A stretch of DNA of 64,000 bases from Rhizoclosmatium globosum. Taxonomy: Eukaryota; Chytridiomycota; Chytridiomycetes; Chytridiales; Chytriomycetaceae. Below are positions 1,663 to 10,930 of the stretch, in pieces (positions within the stretch are counted from its first letter, which is position 1; each line of letters opens with the position of its first letter). The stretch is taken from contig MCGO01000143.1 in assembly GCA_002104985.1 (NCBI GenBank), positions 1 through 64,000 on the forward strand, in the 5' to 3' direction. The notes beneath the pieces were generated by a model, which worked only from the letters and a program-made list of their open reading frames with translations, did no database searches and was not told where the DNA came from. The translations under genes and the position numbers were made by a program.

Positions 1663-1676
1663 TAACCCTAACCCTA
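1663..1676 (+). repeat. Telomere repeat tract between LINE and truncated PLE
   Basis: The tract reads TAACCCTAACCCTA, the C-rich strand of TTAGGG telomere repeats. It sits exactly between the LINE poly(A) and the 5' truncation point of the first PLE copy. The last bases (CTA) are also present in the PLE, so the join shows microhomology. Confidence 0.9.
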
Positions 1677-2381
1677 CACACCCGCTGCTACCAAAAGTCC
1701 CTCAACACATACACATACATAACCAACCAATCCAAACACCCAGCCTCACTCAAACGAGGCTTCATCAAGGGCGAACTCATACGCTACGCCCGAGCCAGCT
1801 CCAACGAAACCGACTACATCCATCTACGCAATCTCTTTCGCGCCCGACTATCAAACGAGGATACACTCGATCTTTCATTAACCTAGTATTCGCATCAGTC
1901 CACTACAACAAACGACAAACATACCTGACTCCCACAACACCACCAATAACCACCGCCGACCCAACCCCTAACATCGCACCCTTCGTCATCCGATACAACA
2001 ACCGCATCCACACACTGCAACTAGGACGACTACTACACTCCTTCAACTCAGCACTCGCGACTGACGACTCATGGCCCAACCCGCCTCGAACACTACTCTC
2101 GCTACGCTCCAACCCTAACCTAGCCACTATCAGTACAGACACCCGCTACCCAAAGATCAACACGAAACGACTCACATGAAACAGATCCGAAACCACACCC
2201 CCCGAACACCTTCACATTTGTCAGAAGATTGACCCTTTCCTTCAAGAAAAAATTGCCACGTGTTTCAGATTTACTTGTTTCATCCATTTTTTTACTCCTT
2301 GATGTTTCATGCATTATTCCGTTGAAAAGTCCTTAAAAGGACGAAACGTACACTTTAGTATCAATAAAAACGAACTACGTA
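1674..2381 (+). mobile_element. 5'-truncated Penelope-like element, unit 1
   Basis: The sequence matches 5293-6001 of the next unit almost perfectly. It keeps only the last part of the RT ORF (C-terminal end at about 2179), the 3' untranslated stretch and the hammerhead motif. One C is missing near 1853 relative to the other two copies, which shifts the frame of the RT remnant. Its left end is capped by telomere repeats, as expected when reverse transcription from the 3' end stops early and telomerase then heals the end. Confidence 0.9.
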
Positions 2382-2389
2382 CGGGAATA
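2315..2389 (+). ncRNA. Type I hammerhead ribozyme motif, copy 1
   Basis: Read from the sequence: stem I strands TATTCCG (2315-2321) and CGGGAATA (2382-2389, one bulged G); core TTGAAAA at 2322-2328; stem II GTCC/GGAC with loop TTAAAA; the GAAA core; stem III ACGTA/TACGT closing a large loop; cleavage triplet GTA ending at 2381. The expected core is CTGANGA. Here positions 3 and 8 are T and A, which keeps the known 3-8 base pair as U-A in place of C-G. Hammerheads in the pseudo-LTRs of PLEs are established. Activity of this variant is inferred. Confidence 0.75.
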
Positions 2390-2783
2390 CAGCTATTCAA
2401 GAAACATCAAGACTCATAACTGCTTAACCACATTCAATCGATCGAACCCTCCTTGCCTAACAACAAGAAAACAAACTACTTAACCACAATCGATTGAACT
2501 CTAACCTAGCCGCAAGTTTATTCGAACCCTAAACCAGCCGCAAGACACATCTCTCCAAGCCACTAAACCAGTCTCCAAGCCACTAAACAAGCCACTAAAC
2601 CAGCCACTAAAAACCGTACCGCACGCACTAAAAACCCTACCGCACCCATTTCACTACAAGCTCTTCTCTGCCGCCGCCACAACCAAGCCGCATCGAGATT
2701 AATCAGATAACTTTTGACCAAACACGCTCATCCAAACCCTAACCCATCGGTCAATTCTGAAGCCACCCCTGCTACTTAAACAG

Positions 2784-3893
2784 ATGCAAAACCCTAGCTT
2801 TCAAATGGAACATCCTATCCCATTAGTCATCAACCCCTTCAAATCCCTATCCCGGCTACCACCAAATACAACATCTTACGACTCAGACAGACAACCAATC
2901 TCTAACCAGGAATTGTCAATCATCAACAACCACGCCCTAAAATGGGCCCGATTAGTCAGTAAAGCCCGAAACCTACACGAAGAACTTACAACTCTCTACA
3001 ACGACCACTCTAATGGCATCACGCCAACCTTTATCAAAATCTCACTTCCACCGACACTCACAAAAAACGAAGACCTCGACGCTTTTACTACAGCCGCCAA
3101 ACTAGGCCTATTTGAACACCACCTGAAACTCAAAATAGCCAAACTCAACCAAATCAACACGGCCCTCTCAGAAGCACCTCAATTATTCTCAGACGAAATC
3201 CAACAAACCCAAATCATACATGACCCATTCACTGCAGATTTAACTATCACGAAACCTTCAGTCAGACACATCTTTTTCCCTACAAACCCACTTTACATCC
3301 ACCTCGCGACCAGCTTTACAAACCACCTAGCAACTTTCGCAACTACAATTAAACAACAAAAAATTAAACAACAAAAAGAAACCGAACGAATCACCTCAAA
3401 ATTAGCCTCTAAAAAGGACACTACTACTTCTAAAATCTTTAAAAACAAGAACCCTACTACTGCCGACGAAAAAATCGACTTATTAGTACAAGCTATCAAC
3501 GATCTATCCCTCCAAAAGAACAGTACTCGCTCTCGATCAAGATCAAGAACCACTCCCAACCCTAACCGTCGCAGATCTCGAACGGCCACCCCATCTCCGG
3601 TCAGACGATCTAATACATATAAAAACACTCAACGAAACTCTCGTTCACGATCACACTCCCGCTCCAACCGCATAAAAGACAACCGCTCCAGATCCAACTC
3701 AAGAACCAGATATAACAACAGAGCCCTTTCCAAACCACGCAATAACAATAGACGATCCAGATCAACCTCCAAAAACAACACCCGCCGAGTACGATTCACA
3801 CCTCCCCAAATTTTTACAAGAGCCGCAACAACAACCCACCAGACAGAAGAAACGGAAGACAAGGACGCAACTAAAAAAACAACAAAAAACTAA
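2784..3893 (+). CDS. PLE ORF1, SR-rich structural protein, 369 aa
   Basis: The N-terminal two thirds are predicted helical and not recognisable by family. The segment around residues 60-130 looks suited to coiled-coil or gag-like packing. From about residue 245 the protein is dense in Arg-Ser dipeptides (SRSRSRT and similar) with Asn and Pro, ending in a basic acidic-mixed tail. SR domains in fungi usually mark nuclear RNA-binding proteins, so a role in packaging the element RNA in the nucleus is inferred. The C-terminus differs from the copy in unit 3 because of a one-base indel at about 3801. The ORF overlaps the RT frame by about 218 nt. Confidence 0.8.
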   Translation: MQNPSFQMEHPIPLVINPFKSLSRLPPNTTSYDSDRQPISNQELSIINNHALKWARLVSKARNLHEELTTLYNDHSNGITPTFIKISLPPTLTKNEDLDAFTTAAKLGLFEHHLKLKIAKLNQINTALSEAPQLFSDEIQQTQIIHDPFTADLTITKPSVRHIFFPTNPLYIHLATSFTNHLATFATTIKQQKIKQQKETERITSKLASKKDTTTSKIFKNKNPTTADEKIDLLVQAINDLSLQKNSTRSRSRSRTTPNPNRRRSRTATPSPVRRSNTYKNTQRNSRSRSHSRSNRIKDNRSRSNSRTRYNNRALSKPRNNNRRSRSTSKNNTRRVRFTPPQIFTRAATTTHQTEETEDKDATKKTTKN

Positions 3894-5799
3894 AAATTAC
3901 TTTAACAGATTCAACTTTATTAAACTTACTTGTCCCTCACTACGCCAACTACCAACCACCTATTCACCCCAAACCGTCTTCAACTTCTCACTCACCAACC
4001 TTACACCTTCTACTCTCAACATACTCGCTCTCGGCACCAAACACATCTTCAACCCCAAACCACTATACACAACCGAAATCCATAACGCCTTCAACTCCTT
4101 CACTAGACGAATTCGCACCCAATTCCAATTTAAAGACGCACCAGTCAATCCACTTGAACCACCCTTCAACCCAAAACTCTGGATCCCCTCAACTACTTTC
4201 GAACCCTACCCTGCCTCAGAATCGATAGAAACACTACTACAAAAGTTCAAAACTTCGCTCGACACTCAAATAACTCAAACACACTTCCGAAACTCCAAAC
4301 CCAATCCCACCATAAACTATATTCGAACCCTCTGCGACCAAAACGACCTCATCATAGTCCAAGCCGACAAAAACCTAGGACTAGCAGTCCTCGATTATGA
4401 ACACTATCAACGCCTAACCAAACTACACCTCAACAATCGCACGTCTTACACCCCAATCACACTAGACGACGAATTTGCCCTTACAATCCAAGAAATCTAC
4501 GATAACTACGCCCAAATCCTAACAACAATCCCCCGACGCTTTACCGGAAAAAACGCCCTCCGATTCCTACACAACACCCTAACTACTACTCACCAACTAC
4601 CTAAATTTCGAACCATTCCTAAACTCCACAAGAACATTCCAACTGGAAAACACCCTAACTTAAACATTCGACCCATCGTAGGCGCAACCAACTGGATCAC
4701 AACCAACGCCAGCATCTACATCACCGAAATTCTCAAACCCTTTTTTGCAAACGACCCCCTACGACCAACCAACTCAACTCAAATCATCAACAACCTCTCA
4801 ACTATCAACACCCCTATCCCGCAAAACTCAATACTATTCTCCTTCGACGTCGTCAACCTCTATGGATCCATGGACATCAACCTAACTACAAACGCCGTCC
4901 ACAAATTCTGCTTACAACACAACCTTCCACCATTCATCCCCAACCTAGTCCACTGGATCCTCGCCAACAACTATTTTACTTTTGAAGACCAAATCTACCA
5001 CCAAAACTACGGAATGGCCATGGGAACCAACATGGCTGTCCTAATCGCCAACGTCTTCCTAACAATCCACTTCGAAGACCACCCACACGTCAAATCCACC
5101 ATAGCCAATTCAACCCACTTTTACGCTCGCTACGTAGACGACATTTTCGGCATCTGGACCGACTCACTCCACAACCTAACCACCTTCTTCAACGACTGCC
5201 AAACCATCGTCCCAGGAATTACATTTACCCTCGTACACTCAAATACCTCCATCGAATTCCTAGACCTCACGATAACACTCAGCAACAACTCACTACACAC
5301 CCGCTGCTACCAAAAGTCCCTCAACACATACACATACATAACCAACCAATCCAAACACCCAGCCTCACTCAAACGAGGCTTCATCAAGGGCGAACTCATA
5401 CGCTACGCCCGAGCCAGCTCCAACGAAACCGACTACATCCATCTACGCAATCTCTTTCGCGCCCGACTATCCAAACGAGGATACACTCGATCTTTCATTA
5501 ACCTAGTATTCGCATCAGTCCACTACAACAAACGACAAACATACCTGACTCCCACAACACCACCAATAACCACCGCCGACCCAACCCCTAACATCGCACC
5601 CTTCGTCATCCGATACAACAACCGCATCCACACACTGCAACTAGGACGACTACTACACTCCTTCAACTCAGCACTCGCGACTGACGACTCATGGCCCAAC
5701 CCGCCTCGAACACTACTCTCGCTACGCTCCAACCCTAACCTAGCCACTATCAGTACAGACACCCGCTACCCAAAGATCAACACGAAACGACTCACATGA
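3676..5799 (+). CDS. PLE reverse transcriptase ORF2, endonuclease-deficient
   Basis: The frame is open from 3676 to the stop at 5797-5799. It has no in-frame ATG before 4870, although the conserved RT begins much earlier: LNILALGTKH near 4018, ADKNLGLAVLD near 4366, KLHK near 4622, RPIV near 4670, FDVVNLYGSM near 4843, GMAMGTN near 5011 and the catalytic YVDD at 5131-5142. The motif pattern is that of Penelope-like RTs (related to telomerase reverse transcriptase). The protein ends after the connector region, with no GIY-YIG domain. Translation probably needs frameshifting from ORF1 (+1 in this copy) or a non-ATG start. I cannot tell which. Confidence 0.85.
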   Translation, partial: KTTAPDPTQEPDITTEPFPNHAITIDDPDQPPKTTPAEYDSHLPKFLQEPQQQPTRQKKRKTRTQLKKQQKTKNYFNRFNFIKLTCPSLRQLPTTYSPQTVFNFSLTNLTPSTLNILALGTKHIFNPKPLYTTEIHNAFNSFTRRIRTQFQFKDAPVNPLEPPFNPKLWIPSTTFEPYPASESIETLLQKFKTSLDTQITQTHFRNSKPNPTINYIRTLCDQNDLIIVQADKNLGLAVLDYEHYQRLTKLHLNNRTSYTPITLDDEFALTIQEIYDNYAQILTTIPRRFTGKNALRFLHNTLTTTHQLPKFRTIPKLHKNIPTGKHPNLNIRPIVGATNWITTNASIYITEILKPFFANDPLRPTNSTQIINNLSTINTPIPQNSILFSFDVVNLYGSMDINLTTNAVHKFCLQHNLPPFIPNLVHWILANNYFTFEDQIYHQNYGMAMGTNMAVLIANVFLTIHFEDHPHVKSTIANSTHFYARYVDDIFGIWTDSLHNLTTFFNDCQTIVPGITFTLVHSNTSIEFLDLTITLSNNSLHTRCYQKSLNTYTYITNQSKHPASLKRGFIKGELIRYARASSNETDYIHLRNLFRARLSKRGYTRSFINLVFASVHYNKRQTYLTPTTPPITTADPTPNIAPFVIRYNNRIHTLQLGRLLHSFNSALATDDSWPNPPRTLLSLRSNPNLATISTDTRYPKINTKRLT

Positions 5800-5934
5800 A
5801 ACAGATCCGAAACCACACCCCCCGAACACCTTCACATTTGTCAGAAGATTGACCCTTTCCTTCAAGAAAAAATTGCCACGTGTTTCAGATTTACTTGTTT
5901 CATCCATTTTTTTACTCCTTGATGTTTCATGCAT

Positions 5935-6009
5935 TATTCCGTTGAAAAGTCCTTAAAAGGACGAAACGTACACTTTAGTATCAATAAAAACGAACTACGT
6001 ACGGGAATA
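5935..6009 (+). ncRNA. Type I hammerhead ribozyme motif, copy 2
   Basis: Identical in sequence to copy 1. Predicted cleavage is between 6001 and 6002. It sits at the head-to-tail junction of units 2 and 3. A transcript through both units would be cut here into unit-length RNA. Confidence 0.75.
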
Positions 6010-6404
6010 CAGCTATTCAAGAAACATCAAGACTCATAACTGCTTAACCACATTCAATCGATCGAACCCTCCTTGCCTAACAACAAGAAAACAAACTACT
6101 TAACCACAATCGATTGAACTCTAACCTAGCCGCAAGTTTATTCGAACCCTAAACCAGCCGCAAGACACATCTCTCCAAGCCACTAAACCAGTCTCCAAGC
6201 CACTAAACAAGCCACTAAACCAGCCACTAAAAACCGTACCGCACGCACTAAAAACCCTACCGCACCCATTTCACTACAAGCTCTTCTCTGCCGCCGCCAC
6301 AACCAAGCCGCATCGAGATTAATCAGATAACTTTTGACCAAACACGCTCATCCAAACCCTAACCCATCGGTCAATTCTGAAGCCACCCCCTGCTACTTAA
6401 ACAG

Positions 6405-7496
6405 ATGCAAAACCCTAGCTTTCAAATGGAACATCCTATCCCATTAGTCATCAACCCCTTCAAATCCCTATCCCGGCTACCACCAAATACAACATCTTAC
6501 GACTCAGACAGACAACCAATCTCTAACCAGGAATTGTCAATCATCAACAACCACGCCCTAAAATGGGCCCGATTAGTCAGTAAAGCCCGAAACCTACACG
6601 AAGAACTTACAACTCTCTACAACGACCACTCTAATGGCATCACGCCAACCTTTATCAAAATCTCACTTCCACCGACACTCACAAAAAACGAAGACCTCGA
6701 CGCTTTTACTACAGCCGCCAAACTAGGCCTATTTGAACACCACCTGAAACTCAAAATAGCCAAACTCAACCAAATCAACACGGCCCTCTCAGAAGCACCT
6801 CAATTATTCTCAGACGAAATCCAACAAACCCAAATCATACATGACCCATTCACTGCAGATTTAACTATCACGAAACCTTCAGTCAGACACATCTTTTTCC
6901 CTACAAACCCACTTTACATCCACCTCGCGACCAGCTTTACAAACCACCTAGCAACTTTCGCAACTACAATTAAACAACAAAAAATTAAACAACAAAAAGA
7001 AACCGAACGAATCACCTCAAAATTAGCCTCTAAAAAGGACACTACTACTTCTAAAATCTTTAAAAACAAGAACCCTACTACTGCCGACGAAAAAATCGAC
7101 TTATTAGTACAAGCTATCAACGATCTATCCCTCCAAAAGAACAGTACTCGCTCTCGATCAAGATCAAGAACCACTCCCAACCCTAACCGTCGCAGATCTC
7201 GAACGGCCACCCCATCTCCGGTCAGACGATCTAATACATATAAAAACACTCAACGAAACTCTCGTTCACGATCACACTCCCGCTCCAACCGCATAAAAGA
7301 CAACCGCTCCAGATCCAACTCAAGAACCAGATATAACAACAGAGCCCTTTCCAAACCACGCAATAACAATAGACGATCCAGATCAACCTCCAAAAACAAC
7401 ACCCGCCGAGTACGATTCACACCCTCCCCAAATTTTTACAAGAGCCGCAACAACAACCCACCAGACAGAAGAAACGGAAGACAAGGACGCAACTAA
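6405..7496 (+). CDS. PLE ORF1, second copy, 363 aa
   Basis: Same protein as the ORF1 of unit 2 up to about residue 338. A one-base insertion near 7422 then moves the reading into another frame and gives a different, shorter C-terminus. Which of the two C-termini is ancestral cannot be decided from two copies. The SR-rich domain is intact. Confidence 0.8.
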   Translation: MQNPSFQMEHPIPLVINPFKSLSRLPPNTTSYDSDRQPISNQELSIINNHALKWARLVSKARNLHEELTTLYNDHSNGITPTFIKISLPPTLTKNEDLDAFTTAAKLGLFEHHLKLKIAKLNQINTALSEAPQLFSDEIQQTQIIHDPFTADLTITKPSVRHIFFPTNPLYIHLATSFTNHLATFATTIKQQKIKQQKETERITSKLASKKDTTTSKIFKNKNPTTADEKIDLLVQAINDLSLQKNSTRSRSRSRTTPNPNRRRSRTATPSPVRRSNTYKNTQRNSRSRSHSRSNRIKDNRSRSNSRTRYNNRALSKPRNNNRRSRSTSKNNTRRVRFTPSPNFYKSRNNNPPDRRNGRQGRN

Positions 7497-9421
7497 AAAA
7501 ACAACAAAAAACTAAAAATTACTTTAACAGATTCAACTTTATTAAACTTACTTGTCCCTCACTACGCCAACTACCAACCACCTATTCACCCCAAACCGTC
7601 TTCAACTTCTCACTCACCAACCTTACACCTTCTACTCTCAACATACTCGCTCTCGGCACCAAACACATCTTCAACCCCAAACCACTATACACAACCGAAA
7701 TCCATAACGCCTTCAACTCCTTCACTAGACGAATTCGCACCCAATTCCAATTTAAAGACGCACCAGTCAATCCACTTGAACCACCCTTCAACCCAAAACT
7801 CTGGATCCCCTCAACTACTTTCGAACCCTACCCTGCCTCAGAATCGATAGAAACGCTACTACAAAAGTTCAAAACTTCGCTCGACACTCAAATAACTCAA
7901 ACACACTTCCGAAACTCCAAACCCAATCCCACCATAAACTATATTCGAACCCTCTGCGACCAAAACGACCTCATCATAGTCCAAGCCGACAAAAACCTAG
8001 GACTAGCAGTCCTCGATTATGAACACTATCAACGCCTAACCAAACTACACCTCAACAATCGCACGTCTTACACCCCAATCACACTAGACGACGAATTTGC
8101 CCTTACAATCCAAGAAATCTACGATAACTACGCCCAAATCCTAACAACAATCCCCCGACGCTTTACCGGAAAAAACGCCCTCCGATTCCTACACAACACC
8201 CTAACTACTACTCACCAACTACCTAAATTTCGAACCATTCCTAAACTCCACAAGAACATTCCAACTGGAAAACACCCTAACTTAAACATTCGACCCATCG
8301 TAGGCGCAACCAACTGGATCACAACCAACGCCAGCATCTACATCACCGAAATTCTCAAACCCTTTTTTGCAAACGACCCCCTACGACCAACCAACTCAAC
8401 TCAAATCATCAACAACCTCTCAACTATCAACACCCCTATCCCGCAAAACTCAATACTATTCTCCTTCGACGTCGTCAACCTCTATGGATCCATGGACATC
8501 AACCTAACTACAAACGCCGTCCACAAATTCTGCTTACAACACAACCTTCCACCATTCATCCCCAACCTAGTCCACTGGATCCTCGCCAACAACTATTTTA
8601 CTTTTGAAGACCAAATCTACCACCAAAACTACGGAATGGCCATGGGAACCAACATGGCTGTCCTAATCGCCAACGTCTTCCTAACAATCCACTTCGAAGA
8701 CCACCCACACGTCAAATCCACCATAGCCAATTCAACCCACTTTTACGCTCGCTACGTAGACGACATTTTCGGCATCTGGACCGACTCACTCCACAACCTA
8801 ACCACCTTCTTCAACGACTGCCAAACCATCGTCCCAGGAATTACATTTACCCTCGTACACTCAAATACCTCCATCGAATTCCTAGACCTCACGATAACAC
8901 TCAGCAACAACTCACTACACACCCGCTGCTACCAAAAGTCCCTCAACACATACACATACATAACCAACCAATCCAAACACCCAGCCTCACTCAAACGAGG
9001 CTTCATCAAGGGCGAACTCATACGCTACGCCCGAGCCAGCTCCAACGAAACCGACTACATCCATCTACGCAATCTCTTTCGCGCCCGACTATCCAAACGA
9101 GGATACACTCGATCTTTCATTAACCTAGTATTCGCATCAGTCCACTACAACAAACGACAAACATACCTGACTCCCACAACACCACCAATAACCACCGCCG
9201 ACCCAACCCCTAACATCGCACCCTTCGTCATCCGATACAACAACCGCATCCACACACTGCAACTAGGACGACTACTACACTCCTTCAACTCAGCACTCGC
9301 GACTGACGACTCATGGCCCAACCCGCCTCGAACACTACTCTCGCTACGCTCCAACCCTAACCTAGCCACTATCAGTACAGACACCCGCTACCCAAAGATC
9401 AACACGAAACGACTCACATGA
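7373..9421 (+). CDS. PLE reverse transcriptase ORF2, second copy
   Basis: Same RT as in unit 2, with YVDD at 8753-8764 and the same C-terminal end before any endonuclease. The frame is open from about 7373 and there is no in-frame ATG before 8492. Relative to ORF1 it lies in the other alternative frame (-1) compared with unit 2 (+1), because of the single-base difference near 7422. Confidence 0.85.
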   Translation, partial: TIQINLQKQHPPSTIHTLPKFLQEPQQQPTRQKKRKTRTQLKKQQKTKNYFNRFNFIKLTCPSLRQLPTTYSPQTVFNFSLTNLTPSTLNILALGTKHIFNPKPLYTTEIHNAFNSFTRRIRTQFQFKDAPVNPLEPPFNPKLWIPSTTFEPYPASESIETLLQKFKTSLDTQITQTHFRNSKPNPTINYIRTLCDQNDLIIVQADKNLGLAVLDYEHYQRLTKLHLNNRTSYTPITLDDEFALTIQEIYDNYAQILTTIPRRFTGKNALRFLHNTLTTTHQLPKFRTIPKLHKNIPTGKHPNLNIRPIVGATNWITTNASIYITEILKPFFANDPLRPTNSTQIINNLSTINTPIPQNSILFSFDVVNLYGSMDINLTTNAVHKFCLQHNLPPFIPNLVHWILANNYFTFEDQIYHQNYGMAMGTNMAVLIANVFLTIHFEDHPHVKSTIANSTHFYARYVDDIFGIWTDSLHNLTTFFNDCQTIVPGITFTLVHSNTSIEFLDLTITLSNNSLHTRCYQKSLNTYTYITNQSKHPASLKRGFIKGELIRYARASSNETDYIHLRNLFRARLSKRGYTRSFINLVFASVHYNKRQTYLTPTTPPITTADPTPNIAPFVIRYNNRIHTLQLGRLLHSFNSALATDDSWPNPPRTLLSLRSNPNLATISTDTRYPKINTKRLT

Positions 9422-9556
9422 AACAGATCCGAAACCACACCCCCCGAACACCTTCACATTTGTCAGAAGATTGACCCTTTCCTTCAAGAAAAAATTGCCA
9501 CGTGTTTCAGATTTACTTGTTTCATCCATTTTTTTACTCCTTGATGTTTCATGCAT

Positions 9557-9631
9557 TATTCCGTTGAAAAGTCCTTAAAAGGACGAAACGTACACTTTAG
9601 TATCAATAAAAACGAACTACGTACGGGAATA
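9557..9631 (+). ncRNA. Type I hammerhead ribozyme motif, copy 3
   Basis: Identical to copies 1 and 2. Predicted cleavage is between 9623 and 9624. Confidence 0.75.
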
Positions 9632-9986
9632 CAGCTATTCAAGAAACATCAAGACTCATAACTGCTTAACCACATTCAATCGATCGAACCCTCCTTGCCT
9701 AACAACAAGAAAACAAACTACTTAACCACAATCGATTGAACTCTAACCTAGCCGCAAGTTTATTCGAACCCTAAACCAGCCGCAAGACACATCTCTCCAA
9801 GCCACTAAACCAGTCTCCAAGCCACTAAACAAGCCACTAAACCAGCCACTAAAAACCGTACCGCACGCACTAAAAACCCTACCGCACCCATTTCACTACA
9901 AGCTCTTCTCTGCCGCCGCCACAACCAAGCCGCATCGAGATTAATCAGATAACTTTTGACCAAACACGCTCATCCAAACCCTAACC
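9624..9986 (+). mobile_element. PLE leader-only segment (3' terminus of the unit 3 transcript)
   Basis: This matches the first 363-364 nt of a full unit (2382-2745). It stops at the internal CCCTAACCC motif instead of continuing into ORF1. It is read as the 3' end of the RNA that gave unit 3: the RNA ran past the hammerhead and ended in the telomere-like motif, which then served as the priming site. Confidence 0.8.
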
Positions 9987-10347
9987 CGGGAATACAGCTA
10001 TTCAAGAAACATCAAGACTCATAACTGCTTAACCACATTCAATCGATCGAACCCTCCTTGCCTAACAACAAGAAAACAAACTACTTAACCACAATCGATT
10101 GAACTCTAACCTAGCCGCAAGTTTATTCGAACCCTAAACCAGCCGCAAGACACATCTCTCCAAGCCACTAAACCAGTCTCCAAGCCACTAAACAAGCCAC
10201 TAAACCAGCCACTAAAAACCGTACCGCACGCACTAAAAACCCTACCGCACCCATTTCACTACAAGCTCTTCTCTGCCGCCGCCACAACCAAGCCGCATCG
10301 AGATTAATCAGATAACTTTTGACCAAACACGCTCATCCAAACCCTAA
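9987..10347 (+). mobile_element. Solo PLE leader unit starting at the hammerhead cleavage site
   Basis: A 361-nt unit that begins CGGGAATAC, exactly the sequence 3' of the predicted hammerhead cut (boundary uncertain by one shared C). It ends at CCAAACCCTAA, followed by degenerate telomere repeats. It looks like reverse transcription of the short 3' product of hammerhead cleavage. It is the most centromere-proximal, and so the first, insertion of the array. Confidence 0.85.
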
Positions 10348-10359
10348 TCCTAACCCTAG
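10342..10359 (+). repeat. Degenerate telomere repeats at the inner edge of the array
   Basis: CCCTAATCCTAACCCTAG, about three repeats with one variant unit. They mark an old chromosome end on which the first PLE unit was laid. Confidence 0.75.
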
Positions 10360-10370
10360 GTTGCCTGTAA

Positions 10371-10930
10371 GGAATAGGATTAATCCTATTATCCTATTAT
10401 CCTATTCCTTAATCTCAGCCATTACTTATAAGGAGGGTTGACTGTAAGGAATAGGATTAATCCTATTATCCTATTCCTTAATCTCAGCCATTACTTATAA
10501 GGAGGGCTCAGTTTAAGGAATAGGATTAATCCTATTATCCTATTATCCTATTCCTTAATCTCAGCCATTACTTATAAGGAGGGCTCAGTTTAAGGAATAG
10601 GATTAATCCTATTATCCTATTATCCTATTCCTTAATCTCAGCCATTACTTATAAGGAGGGCTCAGTTTAAGGAATAGGATTAATCCTATTATCCTATTAT
10701 CCTATTCCTTAATCTCAGCCATTACTTATAAGCCTGGTTCAGTTTAAGGAATAGGATTAATCCTATTATCCTATTATCCTATTCCTTAATCTCAGCCATT
10801 ACTTATAAGGAGGGCTCAGTTTAAGGAATAGGATTAATCCTATTATCCTATTATCCTATTCCTTAATCTCAGCCATTACTTATAAGGAGGGCTCGGTCTA
10901 AGGAATAGGATTAATCCTATTATCCTATTC
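10371..10930 (+). repeat. 77-bp palindromic subtelomeric minisatellite, 8 copies
   Basis: The motif GGAATAGGATTAATCC starts at 10371, 10448, 10517, 10594, 10671, 10748, 10825 and 10902, so the period is 77 bp except for one 69-bp copy that lacks one ATCCTATT octamer. Each unit contains GGAATAGGAT and its inverted partner ATCCTATTCC around short ATCCTATT repeats, giving a strong hairpin. The spacer contains ATCTCAGCCATTACTTATAA and a variable GGAGGGCTCAG block. The last copy is cut off after ATCCTATTC. Confidence 0.95.

Follow-up and report, generated by a model that had tools for sequence, protein, structure and literature searches.

How did a fragment of a Penelope-like element (PLE) that consists of the leader only come to begin at the base where a hammerhead ribozyme is predicted to cut the element's RNA? 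The fragment, here called D or the stub, lies in the window, i.e., bases 1 to 64000 of contig C50 (MCGO01000143.1; base 1 is the contig start) from a 56.9-Mb assembly in 420 contigs. The answer we favor is that D is the reverse transcript of a cut RNA, started within the leader on a telomeric primer. The evidence comes from the array layout, the position of the hammerheads, the two ends of D, and an internal block complementary to the telomere.

Organization of the PLE array

The elements of the array and the reading frames considered are as follows.

1674..2381, plus strand: 5′-truncated copy; homology begins at 1674, after TAACCCTAACC, with CTA possibly common to both
2382..6001, plus strand: full unit 1, 3,620 bp
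6002..9623, plus strand: full unit 2, 3,622 bp; two 1-bp indels and one substitution relative to unit 1
2382..2744, plus strand: leader A
6002..6364, plus strand: leader B
9624..9986, plus strand: leader C, the 3′-terminal leader of the array, directly abutting D
9987..10347, plus strand: leader-only unit D, beginning at the predicted hammerhead cut and ending in telomere-like DNA
2784..3893, plus strand: ORF1 of unit 1, from the first ATG; SR-rich, no Pfam match
3895..5799, plus strand: ORF2 of unit 1, PLE-type reverse transcriptase (RT); the frame is open from 3676, the stretch from 3895 was taken
7517..9421, plus strand: ORF2 of unit 2, 634 aa, 100% identical to that of unit 1

Both ORF2 copies are open. 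The 1-bp indels between the two units sit in short C runs, and the differences may reflect reverse transcription, mutation, or sequencing. Owing to a 1-bp difference in a C run, the ends of ORF1 (window 3800 to 3893 and 7420 to 7496) are in different frames in the two units.

The ORF2 product has 70 protein relatives (best identity, 57%), including P0040, a protein with RVT_1 and GIY-YIG domains that matches it at 30% identity over 85% of the query (E value, 3.2e-41); D318 and D415-D416 are invariant among 15 aligned sequences. The RT is thus homologous to those of PLEs, whose canonical members carry GIY-YIG, and the arrangement of two full units, a truncated copy, and a repeated leader is the tandem/partial-tandem structure with a repeated flank (pLTR) of this class. 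No endonuclease domain was detected in ORF1 or ORF2 with Pfam at an E value of 0.01, a weak negative given that the same scan also missed RVT_1 in ORF2, and none of the 15 aligned members gave a GIY-YIG match. For ORF1, a protein of Obelidium mucronatum (Chytridiomycota; 45% identity over 48% of ORF1) was the sole relative found among 8,000 candidates scored, which makes a chytrid fungus the probable host.

PLE loci in the assembly comprise that of C50, one at the start of contig C263, where the contig boundary removes its 5′ part, and, in contig C279, a decayed fragment; the family is small and young within this assembly. A search for a more distant PLE family with P0041 matched only the C50 and C263 loci. 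Likewise, tblastn over roughly 10 kb of every (CCCTAA)4 contig (16 contigs) and over the C279 end returned no PLE except one RT fragment in C279 (stretch L029, positions 4772 to 4961; 72% identical over 201 aligned bases), which has neither a hammerhead nor a leader nearby. The same stretch carries at about 8100 to 9290, just inside the telomeric end, a frame which, judged by eye, may be a D5-like primase/helicase, perhaps a viral remnant. Neither the viral contig collection (42 pattern stretches) nor the genome contig collection (7) yielded an RT relative.

Chromosomal setting

The host telomere repeat is TTAGGG: across the assembly, (CCCTAA)4 had 90 overlapping matches on 16 contigs, at the right contig end in 15 of the 16, compared with a single match for the backwards pattern. 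From the C50 start inward, the order is a LINE fragment with poly(A) plus telomeric repeats (1 to 1673), the truncated PLE (1674 to 2381), the two full units, leader C (9624 to 9986), D (9987 to 10347), degenerate telomeric DNA, and a 77-bp array. At both C50 and C263, the PLE lies at the contig start and its 3′ end is in CCCTAA-type DNA, with the 3′ side toward the chromosome interior. A terminal telomere array is absent from both contig starts; from the orientation and the telomeric junctions, we infer that each start corresponds to a chromosome end. With its attachment at telomeric repeats, as in endonuclease-deficient telomeric PLEs, the C50 array is a telomere-attached PLE, apparently lacking an endonuclease.

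Two other repeats flank the array. Positions 1 to 1655 hold the 3′ part of a LINE (RVT_1 match) whose poly(A) is joined to TAACCCTAACCC. This LINE has 15 matches on 12 contigs including the window copy, 14 of them at ≥96% identity and several within 20 kb of a contig start, and is a young, probably telomere-targeted LINE. On the other side, the 77-bp tandem array (10368 to 10929; 7.4 copies, with palindromic TAAGGAATAGGATTAATCCTA units) adjoins the telomeric junction; its matches to Rfam miRNA families were far under the gathering scores.

Predicted hammerhead cuts at the unit junctions

Hammerheads have been published for PLEs, as the sequence-only reading of this DNA noted. The motif was located by a core scan (N3 UGAN N8 A, Watson-Crick 3-8 pair, stem II, GAAA, stem III, U16.1-H17, stem I) that was designed after the motif was known and allows 3-8 variants, and hence is not blind; D was not used in it. 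On both strands of the window, the scan found three hammerheads only, all at unit junctions.

2315..2389, plus strand: type I hammerhead motif 1, U3-A8 variant; predicted cut 2381/2382
5935..6009, plus strand: hammerhead motif 2; predicted cut 6001/6002
9557..9631, plus strand: hammerhead motif 3; predicted cut 9623/9624

The predicted cuts fall before 2382, 6002, and 9624, in the register, with the cut before CGGGAATAC, and at the coordinates that the sequence-only reading had proposed. The scan had no hit on the other strand of the window, in 168,730 bases (both strands) drawn from other contigs as 17 stretches, or in 10 shuffled windows. Within the window, CGGGAATAC occurs solely at 2382, 6002, 9624, and 9987, with no occurrence on the minus strand. 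At the first three positions it is preceded by an identical 75 bases ending in CTACGTA, and at 9987 by ...CCAAACCCTAACC. A 30-mer of the hammerhead had four genome matches, including one in C263, and none further with up to 3 mismatches.

The sole AATAAA of the unit (unit position 3604; window 2363 to 2368) falls within loop III of the hammerhead, shortly before the cut, where it could act as a polyadenylation signal in competition with self-cleavage.

The 5′ end of D

D is 100% identical to the other leaders over query positions 1 to 361. Walked leftward, its homology to the full unit stops exactly at 9987, which is unit position 1; the other end is at 10347, and past one mismatch the alignment extends to 10350. 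Homology of the leader C 3′ end also reaches 9987, with one C common to C and D, so the breakpoint is known to 1 nt. The C/D junction reads CCCTAACCCGGGAATAC, and CCCTAACCCGGG, at position 9979, is unique in the window. These alignments confirm that, within the 1-nt ambiguity, D starts at the predicted hammerhead cut with the sequence of the predicted cleavage product. If the D end were placed uniformly, the chance of its falling within 1 nt of the cut would by simple arithmetic be about 3/3,622 if the whole unit is considered and 3/363 if only the leader is.

A search with the first 20 bases of the leader gave 5 exact genome matches and 12 more with 3 mismatches (control, 0), a search with the leader end gave 9 matches with 3 mismatches (control, 14), and a DNA search of the assembly with the whole leader listed just the five leaders. 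A hammerhead precedes four of these five, D being the exception; in C263, the leader is preceded by 75 bases identical to those in the window. The cut site is accordingly joined to an upstream copy in 4/5 cases (2382, 6002, 9624, and C263:643). The tally of genomic leader-only units that the sequence-only reading had called for comes to one: no second leader-only unit was found in the assembly, and the single stub has its 5′ end at the cut.

An internal telomere-complementary block at the 3′ ends

The block CCCUAACCC, 9 bases at unit positions 356 to 364, is complementary to the TTAGGG overhang and lies 355 nt downstream of the cut. Its copies in the array are as follows.

2737..2745, plus strand: telomere-complementary block CCCTAACCC in unit 1, the proposed internal RT initiation site
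6357..6365, plus strand: CCCTAACCC block in unit 2
9979..9987, plus strand: CCCTAACCC block at the 3′ end of leader C, the last C being common with D
10342..10360, plus strand: block at the 3′ end of D, on its telomeric side, continuing into degenerate telomeric DNA CCCTAATCCTAACCCTAGG

Where a full unit continues from the leader toward ORF1, the sequence is CCAAACCCTAACCC followed by ATCGG. Leader C exits with CCCTAACC(C) into GGG, D exits with CCCTAA into TCC (or with CCCTAATCC if the T is a later change), and the C263 copy exits with CCCTAACCC into TAACCCC. All three terminal 3′ ends (C/D, D/telomere, and C263) are therefore in or right after the block. CCCTAACC occurs three times per unit, at positions 356, 1180, and 3354, and it is the block at 356 that holds the terminal 3′ ends. 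This pattern fits priming by the telomere at an internal site. The presence of the block inside the unit, at the 3′ end of each terminal leader, would also explain why the stub consists of the leader only.

The telomere-like CCCTAACC to the left of D, pointed out in the sequence-only reading, is no telomeric sequence of its own; it proved to be the 3′ end of leader C itself, identical to the block in full units.

Is the hammerhead active?

The motif has the conserved core and the three stems, with stem I open, of a type I hammerhead. One core pair has covaried, U3-A8 replacing C3-G8, a change that retains the pair. According to Perreault et al. 2011 (PMC3088659), U3/A8 is present in several natural hammerheads and covarying 3-8 pairs have already been proven active in vitro. 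We infer self-cleavage of the element RNA at the base equivalent to 2382.

The covariance models were less receptive. On a short stretch, Rfam HH9 gave the best of four matches at 15.0 bits (E value, 0.25) against a curated cutoff of 52; a window-wide Rfam scan gave no hammerhead at an E value of 1; and RF00163 had no match at an E value of 10, with 73 of 10,089 candidates scored. At the usual thresholds, Rfam would miss the motif. The hammerhead-competent fold (−10.6 kcal/mol) is 5 kcal/mol less stable than the predicted minimum (−15.6 kcal/mol), which is in another register and pairs across the cut; of 200 shuffles, 5 folded no worse than the actual sequence. Around the motif, the copies show no differences and so offer no covariation among themselves. 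For the hammerhead of the Anolis PLE PAc, PMC11167929 describes no cleavage without protein, so a hammerhead here that does not cut on its own would have a precedent in PAc.

A model for the origin of D, and alternatives

From what is read directly in the DNA, namely an array of tandem units, conformity to the rules of the hammerhead fold, a block internal to the unit in which the terminal 3′ ends fall, and the end of D at the cut, a model can be proposed for the cleavage, the priming, the run-off, and the order of events. The G-rich overhang of the telomere would anneal to the internal block and prime reverse transcription there. If the upstream hammerhead had cut, the 5′ end of the template would be CGGGAAUAC and the cDNA would run off at CGGG, leaving a 361- to 363-bp stub such as D. 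If the hammerhead remained uncut, or the RNA were circular or multimeric, the RT would proceed into the upstream copy and generate tandem units, e.g., 1674 to 9986. The next template would be joined to the stub end by a template jump or after the addition of a few bases by telomerase. C and D are separated by no telomeric repeat other than the block of C itself, consistent with a template jump or with telomerase having added very few bases. We consider this scheme, in which the start is internal and telomere primed and the state of the hammerhead decides between run-off stub and tandem read-through, to be probably correct. It retains the proposal of the sequence-only reading that a 3′ cleavage product was reverse transcribed onto the chromosome end, which is the most economical reading, with ribozyme activity and an RNA end at this base entering as predictions.

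Under the scheme, the stretch from 1674 to 9986 has the appearance of a single product copied from a multimer or circle. Three separate insertions (truncated copy, unit 1, and unit 2) are less likely, as the junctions at 2381/2382 and 6001/6002 are free of telomeric repeats and each contain a complete hammerhead. With four of five cut sites continuous upstream, uncut RNA would be the commoner template.

The best-surviving alternative, which we nevertheless regard as unlikely, is that transcription starts at CGGGAATAC, giving the template its 5′ end there, and that the match to the hammerhead cut came about by accident or by selection. Run-off would occur equally at a capped 5′ end, and DNA would look the same in either case. 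The start would have to lie exactly at the predicted cut, and the promoter-like signals of the unit are poorly placed for it: TATAAA occurs only at unit position 1238, and the lone AATAAA, at 3604, is 14 to 19 nt before the cut, too near for the usual TATA spacing.

Somewhat less probable still is a tandem duplication of the 363-bp leader at the DNA level, by slippage or unequal exchange, in place of reverse transcription of cut RNA. C and D do form a perfect period-363 pair with 100% matches, and the 1-nt junction overlap is compatible with end joining. Against this, the two breakpoints would have to hit the cut base and the telomere-complementary block by chance, and an exchange would have been guided by merely 1 nt of homology.

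An assembly artefact or an RT stopped by the folded hammerhead is very unlikely: this is a repeat array with inter-unit 1-bp indels in short C runs, where long-read errors often fall, but the C/D junction is new sequence found once in the window rather than a collapsed copy, and an RT halted by the fold would be expected to end on the near (3′) side of stem I (the equivalent of about 2387 to 2390), not at the cut.

Beyond the telomere-primed model itself, we offer as a speculation with a slim chance of being right that the hammerhead is a length switch. A cut template would add a 0.36-kb stub that caps or lengthens the chromosome end, and an uncut one would add a coding tandem; the more stable rival fold would keep most RNA uncut until flipped by the protein or by telomere binding; and the cut leader would be a minimal noncoding telomere-adding RNA derived from an autonomous element.

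Comparison with known systems

Several components of the model are already known. PLEs that carry hammerheads and PLEs at telomeres have been described, as have truncated copies capped by short telomeric stretches, initiation at internal sites, and 5′ ends marked by a ribozyme cut. The last of these bears on the view of the sequence-only reading that a telomeric copy whose 5′ end marks the cut is rarely if ever shown: for R2, PMC3774820 describes an HDV-like ribozyme whose cut marks the genomic 5′ end of the retroelement, so a ribozyme-marked 5′ end has a precedent and the novelty lies in the PLE/hammerhead/telomere setting. R2 shares with the present element that the ribozyme cut is the genomic 5′ end, and differs in ribozyme fold, RT class, and rDNA target.

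Retrozymes (LTR and non-LTR) also have hammerheads in tandem or terminal repeats, and self-cleaved RNA is their proposed intermediate, according to PMC7229834 and PMC7761336. They are described there as nonautonomous, with circular RNA proposed. A retrozyme reading of the C-D pair is ruled out by the lack of a hammerhead between C and D.

Canonical Penelope/Poseidon elements, represented by PAc (Frangieh et al. 2024; PMC11167929), resemble the C50 element in their tandem pLTR units, hammerhead, and internal RT initiation, which in vitro occurs downstream of the hammerhead. They differ in that no GIY-YIG was found here and in that the PAc initiation site is not homologous to the target, whereas the block described here complements the telomere. 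In the same study, hammerhead mutants of PAc had no effect on in vitro insertion, and none of the RNA-seq reads had its start or end at the cut. D, in contrast, suggests that cut RNA is used, which that account does not report for PAc.

Further counterparts are the Terminon/Athena elements, endonuclease-deficient telomeric PLEs of bdelloid rotifers. As described in PMC6431247, these share with the C50 array the PLE RT, the chromosome-end site, the tandem arrays, the 5′ truncation by short telomeric repeats, and a hammerhead near a telomere-complementary stretch, and priming by the telomere is proposed there via a C-rich complement beside the hammerhead. Terminons as described in that source have their telomere-complementary repeats immediately downstream of the 3′ hammerhead; here, the block is inside the unit, 355 nt downstream of the cut. 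The 3.6-kb unit with two ORFs and the leader-only stub starting at the cut are further differences.

A literature search found no leader-only PLE unit spanning the hammerhead cut to a telomere-priming block, a weak negative. A stub with its 5′ end at the cut base and its 3′ end at the priming block would constitute in vivo evidence of a cut PLE RNA as template, and the interval from cut base to priming block is a simple signature whose occurrences can be tallied wherever a genome contains telomeric PLEs.
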